From: Polaribacter sp.
GTDB lineage: Bacteria; Bacteroidota; Bacteroidia; Flavobacteriales; Flavobacteriaceae
Assembly (NCBI RefSeq): GCF_024639685.1
Contig: NZ_JAHEHX010000018.1
Span: 1 to 64,000, forward strand
DNA: 64,000 nucleotides
Direction: 5' to 3'
Shown here in pieces: positions 830-46,355 of the stretch. A model generated the notes under the pieces. That model had not been told where the DNA came from. It did not search any database and worked only from the letters and a program-made list of their open reading frames with translations. Both the position numbers and the translations under genes were made by a program. The number at the start of each line of letters is the position of its first letter. Positions within the stretch are counted from its first letter, which is position 1.

Positions 830-848
830 AATTAAATTGGTTTTACTT

Positions 849-856
849 TAAATATA
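849..856 (-). promoter_or_regulatory. Probable -7 box of the NTF2-like lipoprotein gene
   Basis: Read on the minus strand this is TATATTTA, one mismatch from the Bacteroidetes consensus TAnnTTTG, and it lies about 20 bases before the start codon. The same arrangement recurs before the lipoprotein starts at 251 (box near 281-288) and 35362 (box near 35386-35393, TATATTCG), and before the barrel gene at 37705 (near 37729-37736). No convincing -33 TTG is seen. Confidence 0.35.
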
Positions 857-868
857 AGTTTAATATAC

Positions 869-925
869 TTAAGAGGTTTAGAAATAGCTGAATTGAAGGA
901 GGAAGATATGCCTATGGTTTATTAG
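869..925 (+). pseudogene. Gene-tail remnant R1, copy 2
   Basis: Encodes LRGLEIAELKEEDMPMVY followed by TAG, with no gene body. Homology with copy 4 (37766-37816) continues about 100 bases past the stop and into the terminator of the neighbouring type IX-secreted protein gene. Tail, spacer and terminator therefore form one duplicated block. Confidence 0.6.
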
Positions 926-5997: not shown

Positions 5998-6159
5998 ATG
6001 AAAGAAAAAAACTTATCAATAGGTGCTGGATTAGGATTACTTGCTGGCATTATAATTGGAAGTATTACAGAAAATATTGGGTTATGGATAGCACTAGGAC
6101 TATCTATTAGAGCTGATATAGGAGGTGTTTTTGACCAAGAAAAACCAAATAATAATTAG
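5998..6159 (+). CDS. Small glycine-rich membrane protein
   Basis: A 53-residue frame from ATG to TAG: a short charged start (MKEKNLSIG), then two hydrophobic glycine-zipper-like helices (GAGLGLLAGIIIGSI and LWIALGLSI) and a polar tail. Small two-helix proteins of this sort are common next to accessory genes in Bacteroidetes, and no function is known to me. Its stop codon is the first base triplet of the ~635 bp direct repeat. Confidence 0.55.
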   Translation: MKEKNLSIGAGLGLLAGIIIGSITENIGLWIALGLSIRADIGGVFDQEKPNNN

Positions 6160-6288
6160 TTATCAAAGCAATCGTTAGAAAAATTATTTACACATTACAT
6201 TTCTTATCTATGGAAGGTTTATATCTAGACATAAAGATAAGCTACAATAAATTTATTAGAGTTCGTTTTTGGTAAACTATTTTATACT

Positions 6289-6501
6289 ATGAATCATTTA
6301 GAGTTTTTTATTAATAGAGTAAATGTGAATGATGTACCTAATCTAAACAAAGAGCAATTTAAGTTTATACTCAAAGCAATAAATCTCGAAGGACAAATTC
6401 AAGCATTAGATACTGTAGATAATAAAATAATGGTGTCAGAACAAAGACAAAAACTACTGAAAGAATTTAATAGGTTAACAAAAAGGAGAAAACAGAGTTA
6501 A
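6289..6501 (+). CDS. Small conserved ORF in left direct repeat (frameshifted at 3' end)
   Basis: 70 residues starting MNHLEFFINRVNVNDVP, rich in charged residues, with a basic end (KEFNRLTKRRK). Not recognised. Compared with the copy at 45781-46017, most differences in the coding part are synonymous (GCA/GCT twice, CTG/CTA, AGG/AGA), showing selection on the protein. One C is missing near the end (aaaacagag versus aaaaccaga), so this copy loses the last eleven residues (ELIYKDLHF and neighbours) of the 78-residue right copy. Its fixed position in the repeat next to a tRNA gene would fit a small element-borne DNA-binding protein; this is inference. Confidence 0.55.
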   Translation: MNHLEFFINRVNVNDVPNLNKEQFKFILKAINLEGQIQALDTVDNKIMVSEQRQKLLKEFNRLTKRRKQS

Positions 6502-6754
6502 TTTATAAAGATTTACATTTCTAAGGTATTTAGTTTAATGAGATGAAGCACATCAATGAATTTGTAGAAATAGAATACTAAGTATTCTTTTTACTTGTTT
6601 TACGTCTAAAAGTCGAATGTCTGCCAAATGTCTGCCAAATTTTTATAAAAAAAAGATAATAAGTAAAAATATTACCTTAGTTTTACTATGTCTGTAAGTG
6701 ACTTTAAAAGGTATGGAAATTGTTGTTAACCTTATAAAAATTAAGTTTTACCCA

Positions 6755-6784
6755 ACAAAAAAGCTTCACATTTCTGTGAAGCTT
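6755..6784 (-). terminator. Hairpin terminator, left repeat copy
   Basis: Perfect 10-bp stem (AAGCTTCACA/TGTGAAGCTT) with a 4-base loop and a T run on the minus strand. In the right repeat the identical hairpin ends the tRNA-Arg transcript. Here there is no tRNA upstream of it, so it is a displaced copy. Confidence 0.7.
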
Positions 6785-6960
6785 TAAGTGAACTCAACAA
6801 TCAGAAGTTCTAACTTTTTTGAGGATATAGAAAATATATTAATGCAAAATAATAACTTAAAAAAAACCTCCAACCAAATAAAGGTTGAAGGTTCTACTGT
6901 GAGCTCAAAAATCAAAAGTTCAAACTATTTTAAGGATATAAAAAATATATTAATGCTATA
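6785..6960. repeat. Two tandem ~65-bp spacer units, each next to a terminator hairpin
   Basis: 6789-6845 and 6898-6957 are related (shared blocks: agttc.aac, aggata.a.aaaatatattaatgc). Each is preceded by a hairpin whose T run faces the minus strand (6755-6784; 6859-6893). The minus-strand order is spacer then terminator, the same order as tRNA-Arg then terminator at 46248-46355. The spacers may be decayed tRNA 3' ends, but the similarity is weak. Nothing else is seen between 6502 and 7069. Confidence 0.35.
6859..6893 (-). terminator. Second hairpin terminator left of mscL
   Basis: An 11-bp stem with one mismatch (AACCTCCAACC/GGTTGAAGGTT), an internal loop of seven bases, and a run of eight T on the minus strand. 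Confidence 0.5.
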
Positions 6961-7069: not shown

Positions 7070-7534
7070 ATGAAAATATTTGAAGAATTTAAAGAGTTTG
7101 CAGTTAAAGGAAATATGTTTGATATGGCTATTGGAATTATAATAGGAGCTTCATTTAACTCTGTTATTGATGTTTTGGTTAAAAAAATATTTTTACCTCC
7201 ACTATCCTTGTTATCTAATGGAATTAATTTAGAAAGTAAAAAAATTATTTTAAGAGAAGCTTACAAAAATAATCTAGGAGAAACAACAATAGAAGAAGTG
7301 GCAATAAGCTATGGTGTTTTAATTGAAACTTTATTAGATTTTTTAATTGTTGGTTTTACTATTTTTTTTGTCACAAAAATCATTAATAAAATAAATAAAA
7401 AAGCAGAAGATCCAGAGGATAATTCTATTAAAACACCAAAAAACATTGAATTATTAATAAATATTAATAAACTATTTGAAGAGCAAAATGAACTTTTACG
7501 ATCGAAAACCAAAAAAAATATATCAAAGAATTAA
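7070..7534 (+). CDS. mscL: Large-conductance mechanosensitive channel MscL
   Basis: 154 residues. The N-terminal amphipathic helix and first membrane helix (FKEFAVKGNMFDMAIGIIIGASFNSVIDVLV) carry the conserved gate-lining pattern 'F..F...GN..dlAvgiiiGa.F..iv..lv', and a second hydrophobic helix (GVLIETLLDFLIVGFTIFFV) precedes the charged C-terminal bundle. MscL is a homopentameric inner-membrane pore that opens under membrane tension to release solutes on osmotic downshock. The length is normal for the family. The downstream nuclease gene begins one base after the stop, so the two may share a transcript. Confidence 0.92.
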   Translation: MKIFEEFKEFAVKGNMFDMAIGIIIGASFNSVIDVLVKKIFLPPLSLLSNGINLESKKIILREAYKNNLGETTIEEVAISYGVLIETLLDFLIVGFTIFFVTKIINKINKKAEDPEDNSIKTPKNIELLININKLFEEQNELLRSKTKKNISKN

Positions 7535-7535
7535 T

Positions 7536-8123
7536 ATGAAATATAAATTACTAATTATATTAATATATTTAATAAAGTTTAATACTCAAGCACAATTAAG
7601 AGAATCAGTAATTATAAAAAATGATATTTTTAAAGTCAACTATAGTGAAGTGTTGGAACAGCCAGTTTGGTTAGAGTATAAAGTTTTATGCCCTAATGGA
7701 AAAGCTGATAGAAGTGGTTTAAATTTTTATGAAGTAAAAGGCATACACACTTCGGATGATGATGATTACTCTAAAAATATTTGGGATAAAGGACATCTTG
7801 CTCCAGCAGCAGCTTTTAATTGTAATAAAGAAACTTTAAGGAAAACATTTTCATACTTAAATTCTGCTCTACAGCATAAATCTTTAAATAGAGGTGTTTG
7901 GAATAAACTAGAAGAGTTTGAAAGAAATCTTGCACTCTTCTATGAAGTGAGAGTCCGAATTGAAGTTTTATTTGAGGGGGACTGTAAGGTTCTCCCCTCA
8001 GGCGCAACGGTTCCTTCAAGTTTCATAAAAATAATTAAATGGGGTAATAGAGAAGAGAAATTCTTATTTCCAAACTCAGACACCAAAAAAACTAAATGGC
8101 AAGATTATCATGTGCTGAAATAA
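7536..8123 (+). CDS. Exported DNA/RNA non-specific endonuclease
   Basis: 195 residues from the ATG that begins a clear signal peptide (MKYKLLIILIYLIKFNTQAQ). A longer in-frame start at 7476 would overlap mscL and bury this signal, so it is rejected. The core 'YSKNIWDKGHLAPAAAFN' is the catalytic motif of the NucA/Endonuclease_NS family, where DRGH carries the general-base His; here Arg is replaced by Lys (DKGH). The later block 'YLNSALQHKSLNRGVWNKLEEFER' supplies the family's metal-binding Asn and conserved GxWxxLE. Likely a periplasmic or secreted nuclease that degrades DNA and RNA for nutrient use or defence. The Lys variant occurs in some divergent family members, so activity is plausible but not certain. 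Confidence 0.85.
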   Translation: MKYKLLIILIYLIKFNTQAQLRESVIIKNDIFKVNYSEVLEQPVWLEYKVLCPNGKADRSGLNFYEVKGIHTSDDDDYSKNIWDKGHLAPAAAFNCNKETLRKTFSYLNSALQHKSLNRGVWNKLEEFERNLALFYEVRVRIEVLFEGDCKVLPSGATVPSSFIKIIKWGNREEKFLFPNSDTKKTKWQDYHVLK

Positions 8124-8232
8124 ATAAGTTTAAAAAATTATTTATGTGTTAAATAATAATTTTTTAAAATATATAGTTTATTTTAAAGTAGTTAAAAGAT
8201 TAACAGACCATAATTCAAATATTACTTCTAAT

Positions 8233-8262
8233 AACACTTATAGAAACATAAGTGTTTTTTTT
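8233..8262 (+). terminator. Terminator after the nuclease gene
   Basis: A 9-bp perfect stem (AACACTTAT/ATAAGTGTT) with a 6-base loop, followed by eight T on the plus strand, about 110 bases after the nuclease stop codon. Confidence 0.75.
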
Positions 8263-8749
8263 ATATCTCATTTATACATTCAACATTAGTTTTTTTTTTA
8301 CTTCATTCTCAAAACTTCCTAAAAACATTTTCTTGAATAATTATAAAATATCGAAGGAAAGACTCAGCAGGGCTATTATCTATAATTCAATTGTATTTGA
8401 TTTTTTTAAGAATATTAATGATTATGTAGATGATGTTAGAAACTTAAAAAACAACAAATTAAAAATAATAGCTGGTAGTGAATTTGAAGTAGATGTAGAA
8501 GAATTCAAGAATGCCAGTAGAATTAATACTTCACATGCATTACTTGTATATTCATATAACTATGAAACATCACTATATAATAGAGCTATTAAGCTTTACA
8601 AAGAAAATATAGAATATAAATTTGGAGATACTTTCAAAAATTTATCATCTGAAGAAATGATAAAACAAGATCTTGACAGTTTTCTCGAATTAGGTTTAAT
8701 TGATGAAAAAAACAAAAAGAAAGTTTTAAAAGATCTTAAATTTATGTAA
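8252..8749 (+). CDS. Hypothetical protein, start uncertain, possibly 5'-truncated
   Basis: The open frame runs from a GTG at 8252, but that codon lies inside the T run of a terminator, so it is unlikely to be the true start. A TTG at 8333 (LNNYKISKERLSRAI) is a better candidate. The protein-like part (about 140 residues) is soluble, helical and acidic, with 'FDFFKNINDYVDDVRNLKNNKL', 'EFEVDVEEFKNASRIN' and a C-terminal helix 'DLDSFLELGLIDEKNKKKVL'. Not recognised. The lack of a normal start and the low-complexity leader suggest the remains of a longer gene. Confidence 0.4.
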   Translation: MFFLYLIYTFNISFFFTSFSKLPKNIFLNNYKISKERLSRAIIYNSIVFDFFKNINDYVDDVRNLKNNKLKIIAGSEFEVDVEEFKNASRINTSHALLVYSYNYETSLYNRAIKLYKENIEYKFGDTFKNLSSEEMIKQDLDSFLELGLIDEKNKKKVLKDLKFM

Positions 8750-8809
8750 AATTTAAAATTAATCTATGATATTTAATCGTTTTAAAATATCCTTTTGATT
8801 AAAATTTAT

Positions 8810-9568
8810 TTAAATTGAATACTCAATTCCTAGTGTAAATGAAGTATCTGTTGTCAACACATCAATATAGGGCGTAGAATGAAATCTATATGTAGAATCT
8901 ATGAATAAATCAACTTTTTTTAATGAATAATATATTCTCGGTTGAAGAAACAAACGATAATCTTTTGTATTCGAAGTATTAATTTGATAATAAACTGATA
9001 GATTTAAAAAAAAGTCCTTAGTAAAGGCATATTTACCAAAAGCACTTAAACTATAACGCCAATTGTAAATTTGCAACTGCTGGTTTTCAGATTCATCATA
9101 CAATTCATCCTCAAAAAAAATTCCTGCGCTTAAATCAAAATATGAATCTGATTTTGAGAATAAATGATGCCTATAACCTCCTCCACTTATGTAACGGTGT
9201 TTCATTCTAATAGATTTTATATTTTGTCCTTGAGCAAAAGCAAAAACAGAATTTTTACCAATACTGTAATTATATCTTAATTGACCTGTAAAATCTGACG
9301 CAAGGATTTCATTACTTTCATTAATATAGTCATAGTTAAAAAGTAATCTAAATTGATTTTTTCCTATTTTTTTTGAAAATTGGTGTGCGGTAGAAAATTG
9401 TATTAACTCAATATTTCCAAAATTAAAATCCCCTTGAAAACTTAAATTATATGACAAGTCGTCTTTTAAATCAGACATCATATTTTCTGTGTTAATAATT
9501 GTTTGAGATTTTAAATTTATAGACGCCAACAAAAAAATAATATGAAGGATAACAATATTGTTTTTCAT
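8810..9568 (-). CDS. DUF481-like outer-membrane beta-barrel protein
   Basis: 252 residues. A signal peptide (MKNNIVILHIIFLLASINLKSQ) precedes alternating amphipathic strands with aromatic ends. The pattern 'DLSYNLSFQGDFNFGNIELIQFSTAHQFSKK', then 'LFNYDYINESN', 'YISGGGYRHHLF' and a final aromatic strand, resembles DUF481 (salt-induced outer membrane protein) barrels. Function of the family is unknown; outer-membrane location is likely. It is transcribed away from the large ATPase operon, with an 89-base divergent promoter region, so it could be linked to that operon by shared control. Confidence 0.7.
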   Translation of the reverse strand: MKNNIVILHIIFLLASINLKSQTIINTENMMSDLKDDLSYNLSFQGDFNFGNIELIQFSTAHQFSKKIGKNQFRLLFNYDYINESNEILASDFTGQLRYNYSIGKNSVFAFAQGQNIKSIRMKHRYISGGGYRHHLFSKSDSYFDLSAGIFFEDELYDESENQQLQIYNWRYSLSAFGKYAFTKDFFLNLSVYYQINTSNTKDYRLFLQPRIYYSLKKVDLFIDSTYRFHSTPYIDVLTTDTSFTLGIEYSI

Positions 9569-35362: not shown

Positions 35363-35414
35363 TTTAATTAAATTGGTTTATACTTCGAATATAAGAATTA
35401 TAAACTTCACCTGC

Positions 35415-35468
35415 TTAAGAGGTTTAGAAATAGCTGAACTGAAAGATGAGGATATGCCTATGGTTTAG
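35415..35468 (+). pseudogene. Gene-tail remnant R1, copy 3
   Basis: Codons LRGLEIAELKDEDMPMV followed by TAG. Against copy 2 the differences are TTG/CTG, AAG/AAA, GAG/GAT and GAA/GAG: three synonymous and one conservative. It lies 52 bases before the chimeric lipoprotein start. In the rest of 35469-35637 I see no gene. Confidence 0.5.
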
Positions 35469-37959: not shown

Positions 37960-39690
37960 TTAATTCTTTATAAATTTTCTATTGGTTTGCCCAACACCAT
38001 CTGATATTCTAATCAGATACACACCGCTTGGCAATGCTTGTACATTGATGTTGTTTGTATTCTTTATAGAAAGCACTTCTTTGCCTAATACATTGTAAAT
38101 TGATACTGATATCGGAGTATCATTCCCTGAAATAATTAAACTATTCTCTACAGGGTTAGGATAAATAGAAATATCTGTTAAGTTTTTGTCGTCTATTGAG
38201 GCTGTAGAACAGTTTAAACCTGCATCTTCAATAGTCCACCCATAGGTGTCTATTATACTTTGTCTCGCATCTCCAGCAGTACAATACTGAAAATTAGGAT
38301 TATTAAGCGTAACACCTTGTTGTAATGTTAATGAAGACCAACCTATTAAAAGTGCATCGTAATTTTCTACAGAGAAACCTGTCACACCTTCAAATAAACT
38401 ATCCATATTAGTAACATTACTTACATCCCAAGAACCAATATCTTGATTGAAAGAGGTTGCATTATAAAACATTCTCCTCATCGTAGTTACACTACTTACA
38501 TCCCAAGAACCAATATCTTGATTAAAACTACTCGCATAACTAAACATTCTAGATATATCAATCACATTACTTACATCCCAAGCACTGATGTCTTGATTGA
38601 AAGAATTAGCGCCAGTAAACATACTTGAAATATTAGTTACACTACTTACATCCCAACCACTTATATCTTGATTAAAACTTCTAGCAAAATAAAACATAAG
38701 GTTCATTGTTTGAACATTACTAACATCCCAAGCACTAATGTCTCCGTTAAAAACTGTTTCTCTAAATGCTTCACTCATATCTGTCACATTACTAACATCC
38801 CAATCTGGCATTGCACCATACTCACTATCACTACACATACCATCTACAGGATTAGTAAATAAACAATTGTTTATGGCATTTTGAAAATTAGCATCTGTAA
38901 TGGGGGTTAATTCATTTGAGTTATGACAACCTGCAGCTTTTCCTGCATCTTCAATAGTCCACCCATAGGTGTCTATTATACTTTGTCTCGCATCTCCAGC
39001 AGTACAATACTGAAAATTAGGATTATTAAGCGTAACACCTTGTTGTAATGTTAATGAAGACCAACCTATTAAAAGTGCATCGTAATTTTCTACAGAGAAA
39101 CCTGTCACACCTTCAAATAAACTATCCATATTAGTAACATTACTTACATCCCAAGAACCAATATCTTGATTGAAAGAGGTTGCATTATAAAACATTCTCC
39201 TCATCGTAGTTACACTACTTACATCCCAAGAACCAATATCTTGATTAAAACTACTCGCATAACTAAACATTCTAGATATATCAATCACATTACTTACATC
39301 CCAAGCACTGATGTCTTGATTGAAAGAATTAGCGCCAGTAAACATACTTGAAATATTAGTTACACTACTTACATCCCAACCACTTATATCTTGATTAAAA
39401 CTTCTAGCAAAATAAAACATAAGGTTCATTGTTTGAACATTACTAACATCCCAAGCACTAATGTCTCCGTTAAAAACTGTTTCTCTAAATGCTTCACTCA
39501 TATCTGTCACATTACTAACATCCCAATCTGGCATTGCACCATACTCACTATCACTACACATACCATCTACAGGATTAGTAAATAAACAATTGTTTATGGC
39601 ATTTTGAAAATTAGCATCTGTAATAGGGGTTTGTGCTTTGATATTTGCTGTAAATCCAATAACAAATAAAGTAAATAGTATTTTTTTCAT
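37960..39690 (-). CDS. Type IX-secreted DUF285 (BspA-like) surface protein with internal duplication
   Basis: 576 residues: signal peptide ([20 protein letters not shown]), then two almost identical ~230-residue blocks, each starting '[15 protein letters not shown]' and containing the DUF285 repeat 'FNQDI.sWDVSsVT.M..MF..A.s', about six copies per block. A type A sorting domain ([14 protein letters not shown] to the end) closes the protein. DUF285 proteins are exposed leucine-rich-like adhesins. The block duplication is 723 bases in period with almost no DNA differences, so very recent. Flanked by R1 and R2 tails. Confidence 0.85.
   Translation of the reverse strand: MKKILFTLFVIGFTANIKAQTPITDANFQNAINNCLFTNPVDGMCSDSEYGAMPDWDVSNVTDMSEAFRETVFNGDISAWDVSNVQTMNLMFYFARSFNQDISGWDVSSVTNISSMFTGANSFNQDISAWDVSNVIDISRMFSYASSFNQDIGSWDVSSVTTMRRMFYNATSFNQDIGSWDVSNVTNMDSLFEGVTGFSVENYDALLIGWSSLTLQQGVTLNNPNFQYCTAGDARQSIIDTYGWTIEDAGKAAGCHNSNELTPITDANFQNAINNCLFTNPVDGMCSDSEYGAMPDWDVSNVTDMSEAFRETVFNGDISAWDVSNVQTMNLMFYFARSFNQDISGWDVSSVTNISSMFTGANSFNQDISAWDVSNVIDISRMFSYASSFNQDIGSWDVSSVTTMRRMFYNATSFNQDIGSWDVSNVTNMDSLFEGVTGFSVENYDALLIGWSSLTLQQGVTLNNPNFQYCTAGDARQSIIDTYGWTIEDAGLNCSTASIDDKNLTDISIYPNPVENSLIISGNDTPISVSIYNVLGKEVLSIKNTNNINVQALPSGVYLIRISDGVGQTNRKFIKN
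38219..39631. repeat. Recent ~690-bp direct duplication inside the DUF285 gene
   Basis: 38219-38908 and 38942-39631 are identical by eye apart from single-base changes (for example 'aatgggggtt' against 'aataggggtt'), with a 33-base linker. The period of 723 bases is a multiple of three. Very recent duplication or gene conversion; assembly collapse or expansion should be kept in mind. Confidence 0.9.
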
Positions 39691-39708
39691 AATAATCTAA
39701 ATTTTAAT

Positions 39709-39716
39709 TAAATATA
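39709..39716 (-). promoter_or_regulatory. -7 box of the duplicated DUF285 gene
   Basis: Minus-strand TATATTTA, one base off the TAnnTTTG consensus, 19 bases before the start codon. A second TATATTTA lies about ten bases upstream. The R2 copy b tail begins immediately behind. Confidence 0.4.
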
Positions 39717-39734
39717 ATTAAATATAATTAAATT

Positions 39735-39800
39735 TATATATCTCCTTTAAATACACTAACATAAGTATCTGTAACTTCTCCTTTACCATCTAAAACTTCT
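39735..39800 (-). pseudogene. Gene-tail remnant R2, copy b
   Basis: Minus-strand codons [20 protein letters not shown] followed by TAA; no gene body. Most diverged of the three R2 copies. Confidence 0.5.
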
Positions 39801-39838
39801 ATTTAAATACTTACGTAATAATTTCAAACTTTTGGGCA

Positions 39839-39868
39839 TAAAAAAACCCAAACATTGCTGAATGGGTT
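39839..39868 (-). terminator. Terminator of the LamG/DUF285 gene
   Basis: The same hairpin as at 1014-1044 (AACCCA/TGGGTT, 12-base loop, T run on the minus strand), 24 bases after the stop codon. Confidence 0.65.
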
Positions 39869-39891
39869 GTTTATAGTATTTTAAGTCTGTC

Positions 39892-41670
39892 TTAATTCTT
39901 AATAAATTTTCTATTGGTTTGCCCAACACCATCTGATATTCTAATCACATACACACCGCTTGGTAATGCTTGTACATTGATGTTATTTGTATTCTTTATA
40001 GAAAGCACTTGTTTACCTAATACATTATAAATTGATACTGATATAGGAGTATCATTCCCTGAAATAATTAAACTATTCTCTACAGGGTTAGGATAAATAG
40101 AAATATTTGTTAAGTATTGGTCATTTATACTTGCAGTTGGACAACTACCCCAAACAGGTTTATTTTCTTCTGTTAATGGTGAATTAGAACTAAAACCATC
40201 AGGCTCTGAACTTATATTAGAAACACACCAATTAGATATGTCTTGATTGAAAGATGATGCAGAATTAAACATATAACCCATATCAGTAACACTACTCACA
40301 TCCCAAGAACCAATGTCTTGATTGAAAGATGATGCAAAATTAAACATTTGATCCATATTAGTCACACTACTCACATCCCAAGCACCTATATCTTGATTAA
40401 AAACGTATGCATCCAGAAACATAGCTCTCATATTTGTCACATTACTCACATCCCAAGAACCAATGTCTTGATTGAAAGATGATGCAAAATTAAACATTTG
40501 ATCCATATTAGTCACACTACTCACATCCCAAGAACCAATGTCTTGATTGAAAGATGATACATACGCAAACATATATCTCATATCAGTCACACTACTAACA
40601 TCCCAACCTCCAATGTCTTGATTGAAATATGATGCAGAATTAAACATATAACTCATATCAGTAACACTACTAACATCCCAAGCGCTAATGTCTCCGTTAA
40701 AAACTGTTTCTTCAAATGCTTCACTCATATCTGTCACATTACTAACATCCCAATCAGGCATTGCACCATATTCACTATCACTACACATTCCGTCTTCGGG
40801 GTTCGTTGATAAACAAGTGTTTATTGCCTCTTGAAAATTAGCATCTGTAATGGGGGTTTGTGTATTAGTTTCAGAATTATATAAATTAGCTATTTCTTCT
40901 TCTGTTAATGCTTTGTCCCAAATGCCGATGTCATCTATTTTAGCATCTGCATCGTACCACCAACCATTAGCTTGATTTGATACACCTATGGAGAGCCCAG
41001 AGGTTCCCACATTGTTCATCACAATATTTGATGAAGTGTTTGCAACCAGATTATTATTAATATATAATTTTAAATTTGTACCATCGTAAGTCATTATAAC
41101 GTGGTGCCAAGTGTTTAATGTCAGAGGCGAGTTGTTAGAAGCAATTACACTATTTTCTGGAAGGCTTTGAGACTGATTTGAACCTTGAGCTAAAATAAAC
41201 CCTCGAGTTCTGTTATCGTTAAAATCTAAACCCCAAACCTGACCATTAGGATTTGAATATCCATATTGAAATCTTGTAATAATCCTAGAGTTTTTATCAT
41301 TAGGATTTGCAGGGTCGTAATATGAACGCGGATAAACCCAAGCGCTTACGGTTAGATTACTTGAATTAAATTGCGATGAGTACGGAATGTAAATTTCATT
41401 ATTTCTCTGTCCCCAACTTTTTTCCTCCAAGTCAAAATCATAGGCAGAATTTGTTTGACCCAATCTATCATTTGTCAATTCTGTACTTCCGACTACAGTT
41501 CCATTGTTTCCATTACCACTTTCATCATTAGCATTTCCATTAAAAGGATAATAAGCTACTAAACCGTCTGTTGGAAAATAAGAAGGGACTTGTGCATTGA
41601 TATTTGCTGTAAATCCAATAACAAATAAAGTAAATAGTATTTTTTTCATAATAATCTCATTTTCAATCAA
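39892..41670 (-). CDS. Type IX-secreted LamG and DUF285 surface protein
   Basis: 592 residues. After a short lead the signal peptide is [20 protein letters not shown], the same as in the neighbouring DUF285 gene; the M at residue 9 is the likelier start. Residues about 40-265 are a LamG/concanavalin-like domain ([68 protein letters not shown]), which usually binds glycans. Then come seven to eight DUF285 repeats ([15 protein letters not shown]) and a type A sorting domain nearly identical to the neighbour's. Likely a surface adhesin. The high similarity at both ends marks duplication followed by domain gain or loss. Confidence 0.85.
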
Positions 41671-41768: not shown

Positions 41769-43184
41769 CTAAATCTTATTATAAAATTTTATTAATTTGT
41801 TTTCCATCAATTCATTGTCTGGTATGGAAACCAATTCTTCTTTAAATAGTTTATCTAAGCTGTGCTTGTCTCTAATAACAATAGGATATAATTCCCTTAC
41901 TCTTTTTTCTAATAAACTTTTTATAAGTTTTACATCTCGTTTAGTTGTTAAAATGCAATCGTGAATTATTAAAGCAAATTTATCTTTAGGTATTTTTTTA
42001 TAAACCTCAACAAATATATTAGCTTCAGCACTTTGACCAATATGACTAACTTTCTTATAATCCTCTTTGTCTTTTATGTTATTAATCCAATTAAAAACAT
42101 TTGGAAATAACTCTATGAGAGCTTTGTTACCGTCATTTCTATAATTCTTAGCATTAATGATAGTTAATATTTCTTTTTTAAGATTATAATAGTTTTGAAT
42201 CTTACTAAAGTATTCTGAGTTTTCTTTAACATACTTATAAATACCACCATTTAAAACTAAGCTAAGACACAAATCATACTCATCTTGAAATGTGTCACTC
42301 CAATTTGATTTAGTCCATTTAAGCCACTCTAAAAATATAATAGATGGTTGGGCAGAACTCATATCAACTTCCCATATATGGTTATTAGTTTTAGTCCTAA
42401 GACACTTTCTAACTTGTCTAGGCATAAAAGCAAAAGTATGATAGACTCTTCCCGATTTAGCACTAGAAGTCAAGTAATTTACATACTGTTCTAGTAATTT
42501 TTTCGGGTCATCAACATTATTTAAATTTACAAATCGTTTATAAAAATCTTCATACCTCTTTTTCTTATTTATGTAGTTTTTGTCTTTAGACAATTTTAAC
42601 GCTAATTGGTCTAAAAACATCTCAACCTCTGCATCTGTCATTCTATCAAATTCATTCTCTTTGACATAATCAAAAGGGTCAAAGTAAGCATCAACTAAAA
42701 AATCTTGTTTTTCTATAACACTTAATTTAGCTGTATTGGTAGCAATCTTTTTATACAAGGGGTTATCCAAAACCTCTCTAATTCTTTCTTCATTAATACG
42801 GTTGTATTGACGTCTAAATTTTTCTGTTTTAATATCAATATCCTCTATTCCTAACTTAACAGCTTTGTCAGTTAATCTAAATGATTTAGAAAATCTATTA
42901 GTTGAGTAAGTGTTGTTAATTTGTAATATACCCAAGCCTAACAAACAATTTTCAATATCCTTATAATTCCTATTAGTTAAATATCTTTTTAAAAAACTTG
43001 AATGTAGATTAACAAATTCCTCATAAGGTTGTTCTCGTTGAATGTTAATACAAGCAACTGAAGTAATAAACCAATTACATCTATCAAATAATAATAACTT
43101 TTTCTCCTCTGTTGATTGTCTTTTGTATTGAGAAGAGGTAGTTAGTAATTCAAAAAAACCATTAATTGTATAAAGTGTTTTCAA
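41769..43184 (-). CDS. Protein with winged helix and family A DNA polymerase-like palm
   Basis: 471 residues from a TTG start. Residues 60-112 (SSFLKRYLTNRNYKDIENCLLG, then GILQIN and SKSFRLTDKAV) resemble a replication-type winged helix. 'HIWEVDMSSAQPSIIFLEW' (Asp274) looks like polymerase motif A (DxSxxE/Q), and 'FALIIHDCILTTKRDVKLIKSLL' (His408, Asp409) like motif C (HDE) of family A polymerases, with 'SAEANIFVEVYKKI' before it as in 'Q..aAd......'. Between them 'KNYRNDGNKALIELFPNVFNWI' takes the place of the fingers. No exonuclease domain. I infer a compact polymerase or polymerase-derived Rep protein of a mobile element; the assignment is by motif order only. A 46-bp palindrome lies just before the start. 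Confidence 0.5.
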   Translation of the reverse strand: MKTLYTINGFFELLTTSSQYKRQSTEEKKLLLFDRCNWFITSVACINIQREQPYEEFVNLHSSFLKRYLTNRNYKDIENCLLGLGILQINNTYSTNRFSKSFRLTDKAVKLGIEDIDIKTEKFRRQYNRINEERIREVLDNPLYKKIATNTAKLSVIEKQDFLVDAYFDPFDYVKENEFDRMTDAEVEMFLDQLALKLSKDKNYINKKKRYEDFYKRFVNLNNVDDPKKLLEQYVNYLTSSAKSGRVYHTFAFMPRQVRKCLRTKTNNHIWEVDMSSAQPSIIFLEWLKWTKSNWSDTFQDEYDLCLSLVLNGGIYKYVKENSEYFSKIQNYYNLKKEILTIINAKNYRNDGNKALIELFPNVFNWINNIKDKEDYKKVSHIGQSAEANIFVEVYKKIPKDKFALIIHDCILTTKRDVKLIKSLLEKRVRELYPIVIRDKHSLDKLFKEELVSIPDNELMENKLIKFYNKI

Positions 43185-43200
43185 AACTGCACCACATATG

Positions 43201-43246
43201 ATAAGATAGATTACTAAGATACTAAAATCTTAGTGAGATATCTTAT
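43201..43246. promoter_or_regulatory. 46-bp nested palindrome upstream of the polymerase-like gene
   Basis: Outer arms ATAAGATA/TATCTTAT and inner arms ACTAAGAT/ATCTTAGT are both perfect and evenly spaced (4-base spacers, 6-base centre). It starts 17 bases before the start codon. Candidate operator for autoregulation or an origin-type structure. The AT-rich spacer beyond it (to about 43440) also holds a 10-base repeat (atatattgat, two copies near 43382-43405). Confidence 0.55.
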
Positions 43247-43475
43247 TTCTAATATAAATTAATACGTAAATAATATTACTTCTAATATTGAATTAATAAT
43301 ATTAATATAATTTTAATTATGGTATTACAGTTGTATTTCAATTAATTAAGAAAATAAATGGTTAATACATAATATCCTAATATATATTGATATATATTGA
43401 TATATAAGTAAAGCTAGTTTTTATTTAATTTTCATTAAATTGCTATCAACAATTAAATTGGAATTAAGATTAAAT

Positions 43476-43604
43476 AAGCACATTCATCTCTTAGTTGGTA
43501 TAGATGTTGTAGCTGTTCCTACTGGAATAATAATTGCTTCATTTGTAGAGGTTTTAAATGAAGACAAAAGCAAAAATACTACAGAAATAAGTAAAATCCT
43601 ATGA
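43476..43604 (+). pseudogene. Gene-tail remnant R4, right copy: C-terminus of a voltage-gated K+ channel-like protein
   Basis: Plus-strand codons read HLLVGIDVVAVPTGIIIASF, then VEVLNEDKSKN and a stop that overlaps the ATG of the MazG-like gene. 'G...vAvPtGIi...F.e.l' is the end of the pore-lining S6 helix of Kv-type channels. The selectivity filter and all earlier helices are missing, so this is a body-less 3' end. Confidence 0.6.
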
Positions 43605-43930
43605 GTGATATAAAGATAATAACTGATAAATTAATTGAGTTTAGAAATGAACGTGATTGGGAACAATTCCATAATCCAAAAGACTTAGCTTTAGCAATAA
43701 ATATCGAATCAAGTGAATTACTTGAAGAGTTCTTGTGGAAAAAATACGAAGATGCTAAAATTGAAAAAGTAAAAGAAGAATTAGCTGATGTTTTTGCTTA
43801 CGCTTTTTTACTTGCAGAAAAATATGACTTTAATGTAAAACAAATAGTTTTTGAAAAAATAGAAAGTAATGGGAAAAAATACCCAATTGACAAAGCAAAG
43901 GGAACAGCTAAAAAGTATAATGACCTATGA
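43601..43930 (+). CDS. MazG-like nucleotide pyrophosphohydrolase
   Basis: 109 residues. 'ERDWEQFHNPKDLALAINIESSELLEEFLW' and 'EKVKEELADVFAYAFLLAEKY' carry the paired acidic motifs (E-x-x-E and E-x-x-D) of the all-alpha MazG/dUTPase-like superfamily, which hydrolyse (d)NTPs to monophosphates and pyrophosphate with Mg2+. The length is normal for the stand-alone short form. The stop overlaps the start of the following helicase-nuclease (ATGA), so the two are translated together. The combination suggests nucleotide-pool control within a defence-type pair; this role is inferred. Confidence 0.8.
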   Translation: MSDIKIITDKLIEFRNERDWEQFHNPKDLALAINIESSELLEEFLWKKYEDAKIEKVKEELADVFAYAFLLAEKYDFNVKQIVFEKIESNGKKYPIDKAKGTAKKYNDL

Positions 43931-45651
43931 AACTATCCTTTGACTTATCAGTTGAGGTCTCTGAAAAATATGATTTTAACAAAGAATCATTAAATAAAAT
44001 AAATGATAATCCTTGGGTAAAAAGTCAATGGCCTTTAGTTTATTTTATACAAAACGATGATAAACGTGTTGCTTATGTTGGTGAATCAACCAATTTTTCG
44101 AATCGGATTAAAAATCATTTAGCAAATCCTAAAAAGAGTAATGCATTCAATAAAATATCTATTATTGGTTCTGATAAATTCAACAAATCTGCCACCCTTG
44201 ATATAGAGTCAAAATTAATCCAGTACATTTCTTCAGAAGGTACTTATGAATTACAAAATGGAAATCACGGATTAATCAATCATAATTACTACCAACAAGA
44301 TTTATATAAAAATCTGTTTATAGATATTTGGGGAAAATTGATTGAAAATAAAATTGTAAGTAAATCTTTAGAAGAAATAGAGAATTCTGAACTTTTTAAA
44401 TACTCTCCATATAAATCACTTAACGAAGACCAATACAATTCCGTTTTAGAAATTATTGAAGCTCTGACTGAAAAAAAATCCAACAAAATCTTTATTAAAG
44501 GTAGTGCAGGTACAGGAAAAACAATTCTTGCCACCTATTTAATTAAGCTACTTGGTTCTGATGTTTCTGATACTAATATAGATGATTTTAGTGATAATGA
44601 AATACAAGAAATTAACCTAATAAGAGCATATAAAATAAAATACCCAAAAGCAGAAATTGGATTTGTTGTTGCAATGAGTTCTTTACGAAAGACTTTGCAA
44701 AATGTATTTAGAAAAATACCCGAATTAAAATCATCAATGATAATTAGTCCCTCGGACACTTTCAAAAAAGAATATGATTTATTAATTGTTGATGAAGCCC
44801 ATCGATTAAGACAATATAAAAACATTGGTTGGATGGGTGTTTTTAAGAAGAATAACAGAAAACTTGGACTTGACGATACAGGGACTGAGTTAGATTGGAT
44901 AATTGCAAATAGCAAGAATCAGATATTTTTTTACGATTCAGCACAATCTGTTAAACCTTCAGATATTCCTTCATCTCATTTTGATAAATTATTAAACAAA
45001 CCTGATACGATAGAAATAAAACTAAAATCACAAATGCGTTCTAATGGAGGAAACGACTATATCACATTTGTTGATGACTTGCTAAATATTAAACGTGAGA
45101 ATAAAGATTTTTTTAGACCTGATAATTATGATGTTGTTGTTTTTGATTCGATGAAAGATATGTACGAGCAATTATCTATCAAGGAAGAAAAATATGGATT
45201 ATGTAGATTAATTGCTGGTTATTCTTGGCCTTGGGTATCTCAAAAAGATACAAGTGCGATTGATATTTCAATTGATGGTGTTAATTTACAATGGAACAAA
45301 ACTGATAAAGATTGGATAAATTCAGATGATTCTTTTGAACAAGTTGGTTGTATACATACAACACAAGGTTACGACTTAAATTACACAGGGGTTATTTTTG
45401 GAGAAGAAATTTCGTTTAACGAGGTAACCCAACAAATTGAAATTGACAAATCAAAGTATTTTGATAAAAATGGAAAAAGAGGTATTGAGGATATAGAAGA
45501 ATTAAAAGAATATATAATTAATATTTACAAAACGATAATGTATAGAGGTATAAAAGGTGTTTATATTTATGCTTGTGACAAAAATTTACGTAAATATTTT
45601 AAGAAACATATTTCTACATATGAATATGGAAACAAGTTAAGAAATAAATAG
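43927..45651 (+). CDS. GIY-YIG nuclease fused to DUF2075 (Schlafen group 3-like) helicase
   Basis: 574 residues. An N-terminal GIY-YIG-type nuclease (WPLVYFIQNDDKRVAYVGESTNFSNRIKNHL, about 34-66) is followed by a linker and a superfamily 1-type helicase: Walker A 'FIKGSAGTGKTILATYL' near 188-203, Walker B 'YDLLIVDEAHRLRQ' near 280-292, then 'KLKSQMRSNG', 'TTQGYDLNYTGVIFG' and the late 'MYRGIKGVYIYACD', all diagnostic of DUF2075. This fusion is known from bacterial conflict and restriction contexts. It probably cuts invading nucleic acid. Its last base triplet is also the first of the right direct repeat. Confidence 0.85.
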   Translation: MKLSFDLSVEVSEKYDFNKESLNKINDNPWVKSQWPLVYFIQNDDKRVAYVGESTNFSNRIKNHLANPKKSNAFNKISIIGSDKFNKSATLDIESKLIQYISSEGTYELQNGNHGLINHNYYQQDLYKNLFIDIWGKLIENKIVSKSLEEIENSELFKYSPYKSLNEDQYNSVLEIIEALTEKKSNKIFIKGSAGTGKTILATYLIKLLGSDVSDTNIDDFSDNEIQEINLIRAYKIKYPKAEIGFVVAMSSLRKTLQNVFRKIPELKSSMIISPSDTFKKEYDLLIVDEAHRLRQYKNIGWMGVFKKNNRKLGLDDTGTELDWIIANSKNQIFFYDSAQSVKPSDIPSSHFDKLLNKPDTIEIKLKSQMRSNGGNDYITFVDDLLNIKRENKDFFRPDNYDVVVFDSMKDMYEQLSIKEEKYGLCRLIAGYSWPWVSQKDTSAIDISIDGVNLQWNKTDKDWINSDDSFEQVGCIHTTQGYDLNYTGVIFGEEISFNEVTQQIEIDKSKYFDKNGKRGIEDIEELKEYIINIYKTIMYRGIKGVYIYACDKNLRKYFKKHISTYEYGNKLRNK

Positions 45652-45780
45652 TTATCAAAGCAATCGTTAGAAAAATTATTTACACATTACATTTCTTATC
45701 TATGGAGGGTTTATACCTAGACATAAAGATAGGCTTCAATAAATTTATTAGAGTTCGTTTTTGGTAAACTATTTTATACT

Positions 45781-46017
45781 ATGAATCATTTAGAGTTTTT
45801 TATTAATAGAGTAAATGTGAATGATGTACCCACTCTAAATAAAGAGCAATTTAAGTTTATACTCAAAGCTATAAATCTCGAAGGACAAATTCAAGCTTTA
45901 GATACTGTAGATAATAAAATAATGGTGTCAGAACAAAGACAAAAACTACTAAAAGAATTTAATAAGTTAACAAAAAGAAGAAAACCAGAATTAATTTATA
46001 AAGATTTACATTTCTAA
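45781..46017 (+). CDS. Small conserved ORF in right direct repeat, full-length form
   Basis: 78 residues, MNHLEFFINRVNVNDVP to YKDLHF: acidic-basic mixed, helical, basic near the end (KKLTKRRKPEL is the reading around residue 66). No family recognised. The substitution pattern against the left copy (mostly silent) supports a translated protein. The 130-base leader is conserved too and contains another short frame (MEGLYLDIKI...). Possible excision or regulatory protein of an integrating element; not shown. Confidence 0.55.
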   Translation: MNHLEFFINRVNVNDVPTLNKEQFKFILKAINLEGQIQALDTVDNKIMVSEQRQKLLKEFNKLTKRRKPELIYKDLHF

Positions 46018-46247
46018 GATATTTAGTTTAATGAGATTAAGCAATAAATGAATTTGTAGAAATGGAATACTAAGTATTTTTTTGGCTTGTTTTACCTTAA
46101 AAAATTAAATGTGTGTCAAATGTGTGTCAATTCTATGCCAAAATCATAAACTAATTTAAAATAAAATCTTAAATTTACAGAAGTGACAAGTGACTTTAAA
46201 AGGTATGGAAATTGTTGTTAACCCTTATAAAAATTAAGTTTTACCCA

Positions 46248-46277
46248 ACAAAAAAGCTTCACATTTCTGTGAAGCTT
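46248..46277 (-). terminator. Terminator of the tRNA operon
   Basis: A perfect 10-bp hairpin (AAGCTTCACA/TGTGAAGCTT) with a 4-base loop and T run, four bases after the tRNA-Arg 3' end on the minus strand. Confidence 0.85.
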
Positions 46278-46281
46278 TAAG

Positions 46282-46355
46282 TGAGCCCTGAAGGATTCGA
46301 ACCTTCGACCGCCTCCTTAGAAGGGAGGTGCTCTATCCAGCTGAGCTAAGAGCCC
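46282..46355 (-). tRNA. tRNA-Arg(UCU)
   Basis: Minus strand. The acceptor begins GGGCTCT and pairs with AGGGCTC, with two G-U pairs. The D-arm follows the usual TAGCTCAGCTGG pattern. Anticodon loop CTTCTAA in a 5-bp stem (CCTCC/GGAGG) gives anticodon UCU. T-arm GAAGG-TTCGAAT-CCTTC. CCA is not encoded. Last of three tRNAs in one transcript. Its 3' end touches the direct repeat. Confidence 0.95.

Follow-up and report, generated by a model that had tools for sequence, protein, structure and literature searches.

A predicted family A polymerase-fold protein and a conserved DNA site in integrative elements of marine Flavobacteriaceae

The locus and its polymerase-like protein

The stretch of DNA analysed here (the window) comprises 64,000 nt of a Polaribacter contig. 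On its minus strand, an open reading frame at 41769-43184 encodes a 471-aa protein to which a structural model assigns a family A polymerase fold. The frame stays open slightly further upstream of the TTG codon at 43184, with no ATG there; because close relatives align from this TTG onward and most of them have ATG at that position, it is the likely start. Counted from it, Asp274 (codon 42363-42365, minus strand) and Asp409 (codon 41958-41960, minus strand) carry the numbers given in a preliminary description of the locus, and the motif A-like WEVDMSSAQPSI and motif C-like IIHDC on which that description was built are present in the order claimed.

Searches with the window protein gave no usable match in Pfam, PHROGs, NCBIfam, PADLOC or the PDB sequences, and a PDB profile search returned one chance-level match only. 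For L007, a phage member of the family, the match in PHROGs to DNA polymerase I was marginal (E = 0.002). In the titles and abstract openings among the literature matches listed, a set mostly from outside subscription journals, neither the polymerase-like family nor the DNA site treated below was described.

The preliminary description had proposed structure prediction against a polymerase palm as a check, and AlphaFold2, Foldseek and VIA found the family A fold. The AlphaFold2 model, made from an input of 11 sequences, had a pLDDT of 82.9 and a pTM of 0.79, with blocks near the motifs mostly above 90. Foldseek against the PDB reached a best E value of 2e-5, and the best 50 of 423 rows were all family A DNA polymerases. 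VIA-align scored T7 DNA polymerase at Z 14.2 (272 residues aligned, rmsd 6.4) and yeast mitochondrial RNA polymerase at Z 13.2; among the fold matches listed, all were family A or single-subunit RNA polymerases and family B was absent. The top two BFVD matches were an unnamed 409-aa protein (E = 2e-14) and a putative marine phage DNA polymerase I of 403 aa (5e-14). Since the polymerase-fold matches span residues 135-456 and the remainder is the front domain, the reported lack of an exonuclease was upheld.

R246, D274, Q279, Y316, K336, P361, E387 and D409 are invariant in the alignment of 26 of 26 wider-family sequences. A profile comparison with 17 Bacteroidota PolA sequences was weak overall (E 0.024, probability 2%); in it, D274, the K336 region and H408-D409 fall on catalytic motifs. 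The motif B of the close group (12 distinct loci, the window counted) keeps K336, with Y332 replacing an arginine that most wider-family members retain, L340 in place of the motif's F and N344 in place of its Y. In the alignments, Q279 occupies the steric-gate position and C410 follows the HD of motif C (HD[CS]). We take the Klenow counterparts to be R754, F762 and Y766 for motif B, E710 for Q279 and E883 for C410. Given these departures, the protein is a putative polymerase that may use either sugar. Across seven pairs of polymerase-like genes dN/dS was 0.10-0.33 (dS exceeded 1.5 and looked saturated in two), which fits purifying selection. By computation, the modelled protein combines the fold of family A polymerases with the two catalytic aspartates.

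The winged helix that had been placed in front of the motifs was recovered as a winged-helix-like N-terminal domain (residues 1-130; 42795-43184, minus strand; AlphaFold2 pLDDT 90.6) whose elements follow winged-helix order in the model. VIA rows for this domain begin with initiator N-domains 4pql (Z 6.8), 4pt7 (6.5) and 5kbj (6.4), presumably all of staphylococcal plasmid RepA, and archaeal Orc2 (6.5) and MarR-type proteins (about 6) tie with them; the best Foldseek E value was 0.11. The predicted likeness to plasmid initiators is a lead and not an identification.

Integrative elements at tRNA genes

The polymerase-like gene lies 3.1 kb from a tRNA-Arg (TCT) gene (46281-46355, minus strand) that forms the island edge, and is oriented away from it, opposite to the orientation in L011-L014, L017 and L018. 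An element end at 45643-46284 (no strand) holds a 78-aa ORF, arm-type repeats (46110-46129) and a tRNA-proximal terminator-like hairpin, and a second copy of it lies at 6151-6791 (no strand; arm-type repeats 6618-6637). The two copies of this 641-bp block are 91% identical, and the 35 bp at their tips, with the tRNA-proximal hairpin, are equal (6757-6791 and 46250-46284). Remnants of the 3' end of an element-type tyrosine integrase were found by tblastn at 845-919 (plus strand, E = 5e-8) and 35400-35465 (plus strand, E = 2e-5). The contig starts at window position 1; in the left side of the island seen from there on, no 3' fragment of tRNA-Arg was found. The tRNA-Arg site is apparently empty in L106 and L107 and holds a different island in L108, and in one genome (G320) an integrase and a polymerase-like gene (L116) come after the same tRNA cluster. 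We read the window copy as sitting in a composite, decayed island at tRNA-Arg. As only remnants of the element-type integrase were found, this copy is probably no longer mobile alone.

Other genes in the window were noted in passing. A MazG-like gene and then a GIY-YIG plus Schlafen group 3 helicase gene lie at 43601-45651; the helicase gene has PADLOC matches to Nhi, AbiO and PDC-S14, and the two genes are a candidate defence pair. Positions 37960-41670 hold repeat genes with secretion tails (Pfam DUF285 for 39895-41670) and a 690-bp duplication of 99.9% identity (38219-38908 and 38942-39631).

The family was found in 12 of 395 Bacteroidota genomes, the window's own included, and in phage records of 634-735 kb; 62 IMG/VR loci were found by searching with the phage members, and pattern-based viral scans did not find close-group members. 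By record name, the relatives are Polaribacter, other Flavobacteriaceae or Bacteroidetes, mostly MAGs, with one (L015) labelled Euryarchaeota. L011 and L012 (Polaribacter records) and L009 come from genomes of the window's genus (G480, G506 and G507). Three of the 12 close loci (L013, L014 and L018) are near-copies of one another.

A tyrosine integrase of the same family has an open frame in four of the 12 close loci (L009, L013, L016, L018), is broken in one (L012) and survives as remnants in three (the window, L011, L014). Two more carry another tyrosine integrase (L002/L045 by Pfam, L015 by eye), and in the last two (L010, L017) no integrase was found. A tRNA gene lies at most 260 bp downstream of the polymerase-like gene in 6/12. 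Att repeats flank the integrase and gene in L012 and L013, and arm-type repeats were also found. The L013 element, about 3.9 kb, runs from a tRNA-Asn 3' fragment (7618-7666) through an arm-type repeat, the integrase, cargo and a small ORF to the conserved site, the polymerase-like gene, further arm-type repeats and tRNA-Asn; L012 is similar, at tRNA-Met, with a broken integrase and about 5.3 kb in length. In the wider family, profiles detected a recombinase in 6 of 12 regions around the gene; in control regions taken from those genomes they did so in 1 of 11. Control places were fixed before the scan, and one of the 12 chosen turned out not to exist; one test region and two controls were shorter, and two genomes each supplied two test regions. 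The gene resides, by computation, in elements with an integrase, att repeats and a tRNA gene, and a DNA site is fixed at its start. A stand-alone plasmid was rejected on the strength of a search of 72,556 plasmid records, none of which matched, and no circular form was seen.

Varied arrangements occur among the more distant members. In L040 a comM-like gene (by eye) is split by a polymerase-like gene and a large serine recombinase (Pfam), and in L041 (Pfam), L042 and L043 (by likeness) polymerase-like genes adjoin a ParB-N/methylase protein and a resolvase. The polymerase-like protein of L050 (1438-3498, genome G320) has a C-terminal fusion to GIY-YIG and NUMOD1. Beside the polymerase-like gene of L045, five head-to-tail copies of a GIY-YIG-like gene (by eye), with a 391-bp period, occupy 7080-9003, the first copy beginning inside tRNA-Met. 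Small ORFs of 79-117 aa recur in L012, L013, L014, L018 and L105; those scanned from L012, L013, L018 and L105 had no good Pfam or PHROG match, and the suspicion that these ORFs might be small terminase subunits was not supported, no terminase family having matched.

A conserved DNA site at the gene start and in viral contigs

Motif searches of loci and genomes identified a conserved site, TATCATATGTGGTGCAGTTT (43184-43203, minus strand), that the preliminary description had not named. Its 16-mer core, TATCATATGTRNTGCA (43188-43203, minus strand), stops 3 nt before the start codon. The core TCATATGTR lies at most 200 nt upstream in 12/12 close-group loci, the window included, with three copies in L016 (one inverted), two in L015 and one in each of the remaining ten. 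In 116 genomes of the genus the exact 16-mer occurs five times, 5/5 at the start of a polymerase-like gene, the fifth (G418) being at a 15-codon remnant of such a gene. Allowing one mismatch gave 59 sites, and the reversed control gave 41 under that rule, so the 54 inexact sites are mostly background. The exact 20-mer occurs three times in 397 family genomes, 3/3 at the gene start (reversed control 0); among these 397, one of the four genomes carrying a close-group gene (G342) is without it. The alignment of L011 with L012 (94% identity) runs on from a point 3 nt ahead of the site, and directly before it the two do not align; given this boundary, exchange of modules may occur there too. Read in frame with the gene, the site gives YLIICGAVL (window 43182-43215 and L009), which resembles the viral lipoprotein start YIICGAL; by sequence, this likeness may be either coincidence or past recombination.

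The site overlaps by 3 bp the edge of a 46-bp nested palindrome (43201-43246, no strand) that had been read in the sequence as part of an origin or operator. The inverted repeat is exact, with outer arms ATAAGATA, inner arms ACTAAGAT and a 6-nt loop. The nested pair arose in 0/400 dinucleotide shuffles of a 140-nt upstream stretch (18% G+C) that was picked after the repeat had been seen, and a single inverted repeat of at least 8 was common (166/400). The 10-mer repeat reported for the AT-rich spacer is also there, with ATATATATTG doubled at 43380-43399 (no strand, read in the window sequence). By a strict rule, the palindrome was found in 0/11 other close-group loci; a looser pattern, run on the window and L009 only, re-found the outer arms in L009, together with 7 bp of inner arm and a loop longer by 4. 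The palindrome as a conserved origin or operator is therefore not supported: the refuting condition set in the preliminary description, lack of conservation upstream of homologues, largely holds by the strict rule, and on this evidence the palindrome appears confined to one branch.

Site and palindrome together might be an operator only, at which the protein would repress its own promoter, with no role for the DNA in replication or packaging. A site copy no more than 50 nt from the start codon in 12/12 close loci would suit this, as would a palindrome just upstream whose arms are retained in L009 while the loop length differs, and winged helices are common repressor folds. The same 20-mer in viral contigs that lack the gene is left unexplained, and we think that an operator alone is possible and probably not the answer.

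These viral occurrences number 57 IMG/VR stretches from 56 contigs with the exact 20-mer, against 0 for one reversed-pattern control, and 0/57 matched two polymerase, tyrosine integrase or serine recombinase profiles. In 47/57 the 20-mer codes, by pattern, for the start of a lipoprotein-type protein, and the other 10 records represent about 7 distinct ones. An ORF ends at most 60 nt from the 20-mer in 50/57, and 27/57 have an HNH-like ORF (by pattern) no more than 2.5 kb further on. Matches to an ORF that by eye looks ERF-like were found in 27 contigs. Six lipoprotein-type contigs were examined: the ORF before the site is lysozyme- or peptidase-like in four; in L211 it has 66 aa and follows a lysozyme-like ORF, and in L203 it is unrecognised. 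By eye, the site in records outside the lipoprotein type follows holin-like ORFs (L243, L251) or an HNH-like ORF (L207), lies past a terminase-like gene (L255) or by a 600-aa structural-type gene (L235/L239), or precedes a GroEL-like gene (L206/L256); L228 also lies elsewhere. Queries around the site from two viral contigs returned short partial matches only. The 20-mer, a candidate DNA end, sits at varied places in contigs of the 30-kb class, and near both ends in one contig (L214/L223).

On sequence grounds, a short DNA site is apparently common to the elements and to viral contigs with no shared gene. Any of several roles would account for the shared 20-mer: packaging, binding of a common factor as operator or origin, or a junction for recombination. 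Coincidence within one lipoprotein family would account for the 47, not easily for the rest.

Some viral sequences drew attention for other features. L237, 4.3 kb long and with a terminal repeat of 121 bp, carries the 20-mer along with lysis-type and HNH-like ORFs (by eye); this contig is either a small circle or an assembly artefact. By eye, L243 has degenerate direct and inverted site copies at 8000-8090, and L255 has a row of CTTAAACATAGTA-like repeats beside the site at 1990-2110.

The elements could be phage satellites: the site would be a cos/pac packaging signal that helper flavobacterial phages also have, and the polymerase-like gene would serve satellite replication. The 57 exact viral copies and their empty control, the ORF ends and HNH-like ORFs close by, the lysozyme- or peptidase-like ORFs before the site and an element size of 3.9-5.3 kb with integrase and att all point this way. 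We nevertheless regard it as doubtful: the 47 stretches that share one lipoprotein-type coding context may have one origin, some of the roughly seven other sequence types place the site elsewhere (L255, L235/L239, L206/L256, L228), and neither a helper nor packaging was seen, with contig positions not bearing out the site as a DNA end. Moreover, the small element ORFs match no terminase family and nothing in the 20-mer viral contigs, and the window site in full was found in none of 50,697 phage records, which gave partial matches only. Equally speculative is the fuller version, in which minimal satellites of 4-5 kb would pair an integrase with a new family A Rep that starts synthesis itself, the 20-bp site at the rep gene being copied from or matched to a packaging or late/early junction site of the helper phage. 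If the elements were satellites, they would be to family A what pipolins are to family B, and would form a class distinct from the PICI, P4, PLE and PICMI satellites.

A candidate replication protein and its known counterparts

The preliminary description had taken the locus for a Rep protein with the origin or operator of a mobile element. From that proposal, the family A palm, the N-terminal domain of DNA-binding type and the residence in mobile elements stand; the palindrome as the conserved site does not. On balance, we lean towards the gene encoding a predicted, undescribed replication protein of tRNA-integrating mobile elements in marine Flavobacteriaceae. The integrase would excise the element as a circle, and the N-terminal winged helix would bind TATCATATGTRNTGCA, of which some relatives have more than one copy, as an operator, an origin or both. 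The palm domain would then extend, or itself lay down, a primer that starts copying of the circle. Against a replication protein we counted the orientation of the window gene away from its tRNA and the viral contigs that hold the site without the gene; the weak PolA profile match, the altered motif B and the weak, tied N-domain matches; and the negative plasmid and close-viral searches, the lack of a circular form, the background among inexact sites, and G342.

What the palm would make is a separate matter. The HD[CS] of motif C and the glutamine at the steric-gate position, which we take to point to RNA synthesis, would suit a single-subunit RNA polymerase or primase, as would a Z score for yeast mitochondrial RNA polymerase only about 1 below that for T7 DNA polymerase. 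An enzyme making RNA and not DNA is unlikely in our view, given that the best 50 of 423 Foldseek rows are all DNA polymerases. An anti-phage defence protein in a cargo island is very improbable, for all the MazG-like and Schlafen-helicase neighbours in the window (the helicase with its PADLOC matches) and the type I restriction genes near L046 (by eye), as 0/5 family members scanned matched PADLOC and recombinases recur beside the polymerase-like gene.

Self-replicating integrative elements are known mainly from family B enzymes and primases. If the protein replicates its elements, an unannotated polymerase family would add a family A route, and the fixed DNA site common to elements and viral contigs would offer a handle on the replication or packaging of such elements.

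With family A DNA polymerases (Pol I, T7 gp5, Pol theta) and single-subunit RNA polymerases, the predicted protein shares the palm fold, the motif A and C aspartates and the aligned motif B lysine. It differs from family A polymerases in having no exonuclease, an altered motif B (in the close group), glutamine as steric gate, C or S after HD, a winged-helix-like domain at the N terminus and no Pfam DNA_pol_A match. Initiator N-domains with a winged helix (4pql, 4pt7, 5kbj) are among the top fold rows for model residues 1-111; however, the match is weak (Z 6.4-6.8) and tied with Orc and MarR-type proteins, and the remaining protein is unlike theirs.

Pipolins are integrative elements at tRNA genes with att repeats, a recombinase and their own polymerase, piPolB (PMC7385651). 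L012 (integrase broken) and L013 likewise have a recombinase and att repeats at a tRNA gene, together with a polymerase of their own. That polymerase is of the family A type, where pipolins have family B, and at 3.9 and 5.3 kb the two delimited elements are small. PICMI phage satellites, searches for which require AlpA, a DUF3987/DUF5906 primase and fis (PMC10803314), are also small marine integrative elements with an integrase and a replication gene. In contrast to them, the elements here have a polymerase-fold gene and tRNA sites, L012 and L013 not lying at fis, and the polymerase-like proteins scanned among a subset of element ORFs had no Pfam match to DUF3987/DUF5906. Tycheposons, as described second-hand in PMC10872708, have a tRNA border, a tyrosine recombinase and cargo and occur in aquatic bacteria. 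L012 and L013 share the tRNA border, tyrosine recombinase and cargo; the text of that paper does not use the word polymerase, whereas the elements here have a fixed gene and DNA site. Bearing on packaging by a helper phage, the shared 20-mer was the only finding. Iteron plasmids have repeated initiator sites by the rep gene, and the site at the start of the polymerase-like gene is present in three copies in L016, two in L015 and one in the other ten close loci.
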